This document shows, piece by piece, positions 11,901 through 14,900 of a stretch of 64,000 nucleotides of DNA (its first letter is position 1; every line of letters starts with the position of its first letter). Source of the DNA: Tubiluchus corallicola (Eukaryota > Priapulida > Priapulimorpha > Priapulimorphida > Tubiluchidae); assembly GCA_030141605.1 (NCBI GenBank), contig JAQGDQ010000205.1, forward strand, positions 1-64,000, in the 5' to 3' direction. Both the position numbers and the translations under genes were made by a program. The notes beneath the pieces were generated by a model. That model saw only the letters and a program-made list of their open reading frames with translations, was not told the DNA's origin and ran no database searches.

Positions 11901-14900
11901 TAGTGCAAAATGGTAGGTATACGAAATCAACTTTTTAGTGGTGCTAGTATATAAATAGTGCTGTAAAGTTTTTCAACAATTCTGCCTTTAATTTAATTAC
12001 AGTGTTTTCAGTCTGTTATCTGTCATTAATACATTTGTTTGCTACAGTGTACACAATATAAAGTAAATACAAAAGTAAATTCACTGTGGCAAATTTCTGC
12101 TGGTGTGGAAATAGTGCATATTAACGTTTTTAAGAACTATAACATAATTATAAATATCTGTTGTAAGCAATTGAGTTTTTTATGCAAAACTTGCTGCATT
12201 GGAAGACAAAGACAAGATTTATTTAACGTCCCTCATTTAACAGGCAATATTAACACTGACAGCTATTTAGCGACTTACACTTACAACAATACAGGTAAGG
12301 ACACAACACGCAAATAATGAATAACACATATGGTATGTGCCCTGGTGTTGGGAGCCGCTAACATCGAACTCAAGACTACATGGTTGCAGTCCAAACTCTA
12401 AAAACTCAGCCACCCAACCCAGAACAAAGAGTTACTGTTAAGGAGTATGCAATTATCTGTTACATATACTCGTAACAGTAAGTGTTTCCTTAGGTCACAT
12501 AATGATTTGCTTTGACATGCTGTTTGGCACTTGCTAAAATAATACGATCGTTTAATTCATTTTCAGAAACAATATTGGGTGCTCTAGCAAGAGTTTTACG
12601 TGAAGACTGGAAGAAAAGCACTGAGTTAGCCACGAACATCATCTATACTTTCTTCTGCTTATCAGCATTTTCTCAGTTTCATGCTGTCATCTCTCATTTC
12701 AAGATCGGAGCCTTGTGCATGGCGGCCATAGAAACCGAGTTGAAGCGGCATGACTTGTGGCAGGAAGAACTTCAGAAGAAGAAAAAGGCTGATATCCTTT
12801 GTGCCTGATTTATTCCCTTTTACTAGTATATAAATTCGCATCCTAGTCTTACTAGTGTACATAATATAGTAAAGATGTCATATCTGAGTGCAGTGCTGGG
12901 AGTGGTTAACTAGTTAAATCTAAAGCACTCAGCCAACCAACCCAGGACAAAGATTTACTGTTGAAGATAGTGTGTAATTATCTGTTATATATTCATCTGC
13001 TCTTCGTTTAGCTGTTAATCAGTTAATCTCTTTTCAAAATTTTGGTTGCAAACATTCTGGGCGTGCTGGAACTGGTTAGGGATTCACTTAGCTGGTCAAT
13101 TTTTTATTGGCTATCCATTAACTGACCAACTAATTAATCAAATCTAGCCGGAATTAACCAGTTAATAGATAAACGAATAGCAGATGAATATATAAGACAT
13201 AATTACATACTCTTCAACTGCAACTCTTTGTCCTGGGTTAATTTTTTTAACCGGTTAACGGAGCTTAATCACAGTGGACTCTGTAATTATTGTAACATGT
13301 TCTGTCACTCTCAGGACTGCCACATAGAATCCAATCAGTCGTTGGATCTTCAGCTTTCTGCGGGGTGGCAGGAATAAATTTCTTGTTTATTTAGTCCAAT
13401 GATCTAGTCGGCAAATTACAAAGGATCTCCGATGTTGCCTAAATCTCATTAATCGGTTAATCGATTAAACAATAAAAAATTGACCACTTAAGTGAATTCT
13501 TAACTTGTTCCAGCCATGCCTGAATACTTACAGTTAAAATTTTATAAGGTAAATAAACAGGTTTTTAACAATCTTTTTTCCAAGTCTGCAAGATTGGTCA
13601 TTTCATTTTTATTTAAAATTTTCTTAACACATTGTACCAGATGCAGATCCTTCCAATAAAAAAGAATACACTAAGAGTTTGAAGTCCTACCAGACCTTAC
13701 TAGGCAAGCAAGAACAGCTTTTGCGAGGTAAGCGTCTTAGCTTAAATGAATGGCAAAAGTGGGAAAGACCTGGGAAGATTTTCTGGTGGTGTGGTTTTCA
13801 CCAGCTACCAGTGATTAGATTAGTCAGTAAATATAGTTGTCCATTATATGAATAATTCATGGTCACATCAACAATTCTAAGGCTGGGTTATTTCATACAT
13901 TCTTGGGAAAGCTCAGATCACAGATCCTTGGTCGTTCTAAAGAAAGTTAAATTTTTTTGTCAGGCAAGTAAATGACATCCGCTAAAAATTTCTAGGTGAT
14001 TCTAATAAGAGATTTAAAATGATTATAATTTAATCGCTACTTTTTTGTTTTCATTTTCAACAAATTGCCTTTTAGGGTAAACTTTAGCTCCCATCTGTAT
14101 ATATCTGCAGTATATACCTTCACATAGTCTAATCAAATGTTGCCTCCTCCACAAATGCTTAGTGAATATGTTAAAATATTTATCATTTCTTTGTACGATG
14201 TAGTTTATATTGTAAATTATGGATTATTACAAACACTCGTTATAACTCTTTCAAACTACCAGTAATACGTTATCAATAAACATTTTTTCTTTACTAACTC
14301 TGGCAGCCTATTATAAGCTTTGCTACCTAGGTCTATGGTGCTAAAATTATTCTTCCTTTAAGAATTACTGTTAACTTATGTACAGTAAGTACTCGCTTAA
14401 CGACTCCCCGTTTAGCGACGTTTTAACGACGCTGAACATTTGACAGCTTTTAAGCAAGCAGAAAGAAATTAGTTAGTGGAACCCGTAAAGAAACTCATAA
14501 AGCGTTTAATTTATAGGATTTAAGGAGCATTGATTTTTTTGTCTTTCGAACGTATCTCAATTCTTTTATATTGCTGTTTATGGAGGTTTAGGTTTTGTTT
14601 AACGACGTTTTGCTTAACGTCGCATTTTGCTGGAACCCATTAGCATCGTTAAGCAGGAACTTACTGTACTTTGTGATTTTAAAGCATCTGTTGCTTATCT
14701 TGGAAAATAACTTGAATCGAAATTTAAAAACTAATAATGATTGCATTTCCAGTTGCATTTTATGTTCTGTTGAACCTGTCTGAGGACATAAAAGTTGAAG
14801 TGAAGATGGTGAACAAGAACATTGTTGGGATGCTTGTCAAGTCTTTAGAAAGAGACAGCGCCGAATTACTGCTTCTTGTTGTCACCTTTCTGAAGAAGTT

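Follow-up and report, generated by a model that had tools for sequence, protein, structure and literature searches.

A probable U12-type AT-AC intron and a candidate second minor-spliceosome intron in the KIFAP3 gene of Tubiluchus corallicola

It is established biology that, in U12-type splicing, U11 acts at the donor and U12 at the branch site, with U6atac subsequently replacing U11. AT-AC and GT-AG introns of this type, the corresponding machinery and same-gene clustering are well documented, U12-type introns sharing a gene more often than chance would predict in 21/21 genomes tested (PMC7367187). Described AT-AC representatives include introns of KCMF1, PHB2, STX6 and SLC9A7/Nhe3 (PMC2831892). 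Analysis of the window, i.e., the whole stretch of 64,000 nucleotides considered here, indicated that intron 5 of its KIFAP3 gene very probably belongs to the AT-AC subtype of U12-type (minor-spliceosome) introns; this assignment is based on the motifs, their placement relative to homology-defined exons, an open spliced frame, the snRNA pairing potential, and the presence of minor-spliceosome snRNA and protein genes. Intron 5 resembles the described U12-type AT-AC introns in its donor ATATCCTT, its terminal AC, a branch site close to TCCTTAAC and a short branch-to-end distance, whereas it differs from them in having T where TCCTTAAC has its first C (TTCTTAAC) and in being full of fold-back repeats; there is no difference in kind. 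The same gene appears, from its splice signals, to carry a second U12-type intron, intron 14, of the GT-AG subtype, which shares the donor GTATCCTTT, the C at +5 and the terminal AG with other U12-type GT-AG introns, whereas its branch site TTTTCCTTATC is without the second consensus A and offers one candidate branch adenosine. With introns 5 and 14, KIFAP3 is comparable to other genes with two U12-type introns. Intron 5 is thus unexceptional within a rare but familiar class: U12-type introns of the AT-AC subtype have long been known, as have genes carrying two introns of U12 type, and the introns of KIFAP3 settle no open question.

The gene on the plus strand of the window had been named KIFAP3 in the initial annotation, and comparison of its predicted product confirmed this identity (KIFAP3/KAP3). 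Matches to Pfam PF05804 were found in 13 stretches, which are confined to the window within the assembly of 343.5 Mb, and alignment of the protein deduced from the spliced model with the solved KAP3 structure 9w9h_C scored 952 bits over residues 1-690. The model comprises 15 exons, which join into one uninterrupted frame, and the 14 introns between them; exon borders were placed by hand using homology and splice signals. The modelled interval includes neither the C-terminal tail nor the initial exon(s), and the first resolved exon is numbered exon 2. Coordinates of the relevant features are given in Table 1.

Table 1. Location of KIFAP3 splicing features in the window, and of control and minor-spliceosome genes elsewhere in the assembly
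Feature	Position	Strand	Remarks
KIFAP3 (kinesin-associated protein 3)	9794-22874	+	15 resolved exons; PF05804 exon matches, open spliced frame, alignment with solved KAP3
Exon 5	12567-12791	+	ends ...KKKKA + G (phase 1)
Intron 5, AT-AC, probable U12-type	12792-13637	+	846 nt; donor agrees with U12 at 8/8 positions, C at +5, branch site, top-scoring of three junctions
Candidate U12-type 5' splice site of intron 5, ATATCCTTT	12792-12800	+	UCCUUU can pair with U11 5' end and U6atac
Decoy GT donor (GTGCCT)	12801-12802	+	in frame with AG at 13640
Candidate U12-type branch site of intron 5, TTTTCTTAAC	13619-13628	+	9 predicted pairs (one G-U) with own-genome U12, bulged A
Terminal AC of intron 5	13636-13637	+	10-11 nt past branch adenosines
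Competing in-frame AG end (AT-AG)	13639-13640	+	would drop one residue
Exon 6	13638-13727	+	spliced KIFAP3 model
Intron 14, GT-AG, candidate U12-type, donor GTATCCTTT	20237-22031	+	1795 nt, phase 1; 0/8 donor mismatches, +5 = C
Candidate branch site of intron 14, TTTTCCTTATC	22009-22019	+	T in place of second consensus A
KCMF1 AT-AC U12-type intron	G000 C707, 70919 to 69636	-	donor ATATCCTTTT, branch site TCCTTAAC
U11 snRNA	contig C1937		Rfam match
U12 snRNA	contig C246		Rfam match
U4atac snRNA	contig C1248		Rfam match
U6atac snRNA	contig C1219		Rfam match
Second U6atac-like copy	L011 1501-1624 (G000 C1024)	-	74 bits
CENATAC exons	contig C2008		
PDCD7 exons	contig C2286		

The window sequence at 12792 reads ATATCCTTTGTG, and the donor of intron 5 agrees with the U12 consensus at 8/8 positions (+2 to +9), exactly as had been claimed for it. 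Introns 5 and 14 show no mismatches to the U12 donor, and the other 12 KIFAP3 introns show 4-6 mismatches out of 8. The extended donor RTATCCTTT stands precisely at the homology-defined exon end in both cases, namely as ATATCCTTT for intron 5 and as GTATCCTTT for intron 14. At its other extremity intron 5 ends with TTTTCTTAACACATTGTAC (13619-13637), and exon 6 begins with CAGATGCAGATCC. The branch site TTTTCTTAAC, near to TTCCTTAAC and within about 8-20 nt of the intron end, stops 9 nt short of the last base of the terminal AC, with its two adenosines 10 and 11 nt from the intron end. The branch site had initially been described as lying at the right distance, which agrees with these values; the optimum for U12-type introns is 11-13 nt, and either adenosine is usable (PMC3584512). 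Splicing of 12791 to 13638 yields KKKKAADADP in an open frame, in phase 1 (GCT G / CA GAT). Unspliced read-through from exon 5 meets a TGA a few codons into intron 5, and hence this intron has to be removed.

As regards chance expectation, about 0.8 occurrences of the 9-mer ATATCCTTT are expected per 64 kb strand and one was found on each strand, so that the motif alone proves nothing; its weight comes from its exact placement at a homology-defined exon end. The probability of TATCCTTT at positions +2 to +9 of one given boundary is about 4e-5 at the base composition of the window, and that of exact U12 donors at 2 of the 14 KIFAP3 introns is about 1.5e-7. A branch-site match as good as that of intron 5, defined as no more than 2 mismatches to TTTTCCTTAAC at 8-25 nt from the end, precedes 0.7% of the AC dinucleotides in the window. 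Other RTATCCTT words, which are motif matches only, occur at 40096 on the plus strand and at 54773, 48320 and 40570 on the minus strand.

The interior of intron 5 is packed with inverted and dispersed repeats: the arms 12969-13027 and 13153-13211 are 85% complementary, and sequences similar to parts of 13237-13520 recur at more than 40 further sites in the genome. The predicted fold of the intron transcript is far more stable than those of shuffled sequences (z -10.2), and related fragments are present in intron 4 (12404-12467). These repeats look like the remains of a fold-back transposon.

Around the intron 5 junction there are 25 GT/GC-AG pairs that keep the frame, and three junctions were scored for their fit to the family. 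The AT12792-AC13637, AT12792-AG13640 and GT12801-AG13640 junctions obtained 89.2, 83.0 and 79.6 bits against the Pfam KAP profile, and 75.1, 69.6 and 67.9 bits against the solved KAP3, respectively. AT-AC scored highest in both comparisons, with a modest margin over the AG end. The originally proposed AC terminus with KKKKAADADP is consistent with these results, given that it leaves the spliced frame open, preserves the KAP family frame and provides the best-scoring junction. The accompanying claim of a gap-free alignment with the KAP3 family held against the Pfam KAP profile but not against the solved KAP3, where a 3-residue gap appears a few residues downstream.

The closest competitor, absent from the initial annotation, keeps the U12-type donor and places the 3' end at AG 13640, used exclusively or as a second option; the product would read KKKKADADP and lack one residue. 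This AT-AG junction is open and in frame, its AG lies 13-14 nt past the branch adenosines, and AT-AG minor introns are known among A-type introns (PMC8280824); against it, the score drops by 6.2 bits with the Pfam KAP profile and by 5.5 bits with the solved KAP3, AC 13637 precedes AG 13640, and AT-AG combinations are disfavoured and poorly spliced (PMC3584512). We consider this reading improbable. Since the junctions differ by only 6-10 bits in homology, the choice of the exact 3' end depends in part on this disfavoured status of AT-AG, and AC 13637, not the in-frame AG three bases later, would be the main end.

The GT at 12801 had been pointed out as frame-preserving, which is true in combination with AG 13640, and it is the only GT donor near the homology-defined junction. 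An ordinary GT-AG intron spanning 12801-13640 and removed by the major spliceosome would thus be open and in frame, with the U12-like motifs either coincidental or left over from a conversion, and introns are documented to convert through a cryptic U2 donor close to the former U12 donor (PMC3584512). Nevertheless, this model is the worst of the three in homology, its junction inserts ILY, its donor is weak (TTT/GTGCCT, no G at +5), and it leaves to chance that the U12 donor and the U12 branch site are both intact, whereas intron 14 and KCMF1 indicate that the U12-type class exists in the same genome; we regard it as extremely unlikely. In U2-type AT-AC introns, such as those of sodium channel genes, a G at donor position +5 is the criterion (PMC2831892); the C found at +5 of intron 5 excludes this class and also counts against use of the intron by the major spliceosome. 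In practical terms, a gene finder limited to GT-AG introns may select the decoy GT at 12801 and thereby insert wrong residues in KIFAP3.

The initial annotation had made the AT-AC reading dependent on the occurrence of minor-spliceosome snRNAs in the genome, and all four were found. The Rfam matches to U11, U12, U4atac and U6atac scored 101.7, 105.9, 86.0 and 112.4 bits, respectively, all above the cut-off and full length. Taken with the exons of PDCD7 and of CENATAC, which promotes splicing of AT-AN minor introns (PMC8280824), and with an AT-AC intron in KCMF1, these genes demonstrate that the machinery is encoded. The UCCUUU segment of the intron 5 donor could form six base pairs with the 5' end of U11, one of them G-U, and six perfect ones with U6atac, and the branch site of this intron offers 9-base pairing with the U12 of the same genome around one bulged A. 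In the proposed sequence of events, U11 would pair with the donor ATATCCTTT, U12 would pair with the branch site TTTTCTTAAC, U11 would then give way to U6atac at the donor, and 3' cleavage would follow the AC, so that GCT-G and CA-GAT become joined in phase 1. The 12791/13638 joining is, according to the same signals, the one that cells would be expected to use. In a second U6atac-like copy, probably a pseudogene, a G is replaced by C and an extra base is present within or close to the donor-pairing segment.

PHB2 was tried first as a positive control, followed by KCMF1. For PHB2, an AT-AC gene in fly and human, no U12-type donor with a branch site was detected at the intron borders in the region searched, so that conservation of U12-type introns in this genome is incomplete. 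KCMF1, likewise a U12 AT-AC gene in fly and human (PMC2831892), contains an in-frame AT-AC intron of 1284 nt with the structure ATATCCTTTT...TCCTTAAC...TTCAC. Compared with the human KCMF1 protein used as query, the exon preceding this intron has four additional residues (ISFH) next to the junction.

The U12-type character of intron 14 was likewise absent from the initial annotation. This intron ends with TTTTCCTTATCTTTAGTTTATAG, and its junction is gap-free against the solved KAP3 (VVKQTHAPAYL / IIKETQAPAYL). Its putative branch site is close to TTCCTTAAC, with one mismatch, at the second A; the single branch adenosine lies 14 nt from the end, and the potential pairing with U12 is otherwise complete.

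KIFAP3 was not named as a minor-intron gene in the main texts searched, the species-wide gene lists being placed in supplements. The account of the 19 U12-type introns of Drosophila makes no mention of kinesin or Kap (PMC2831892), and a literature search combining KIFAP3 with U12-type or minor-spliceosome splicing gave no paper with a relevant title. The gene would be an added two-minor-intron member of the list tying the minor spliceosome to cilium genes, a link already made in humans and zebrafish (PMC13216214). In a more speculative reading, which we hold to be unlikely, the presence of two U12-type introns differing in subtype might tie the output of this kinesin-2 accessory subunit, and hence cilium building, twice to the activity of the minor spliceosome, with the AT-AC intron expected to need CENATAC and the GT-AG intron less dependent on it; in addition, if both the AC end at 13637 and the AG end at 13640 were used, two proteins one residue apart might result.

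Several other features were observed in the window. An interstitial TTAGGG-like tandem array of about 16 units with 68% matches occupies 7267-7363. Exons resembling an AMP-binding fatty-acid transport protein are spread over about 36000-50800 on the plus strand, one of them matching Pfam PF00501 weakly. On the minus strand, two long open frames with no visible introns were found, one at 29695-31125 for a LAMP-like lysosomal membrane glycoprotein, and the other at 57354-60818 for a ubiquitin hydrolase of the UCH type with a maximum length of 1155 residues.
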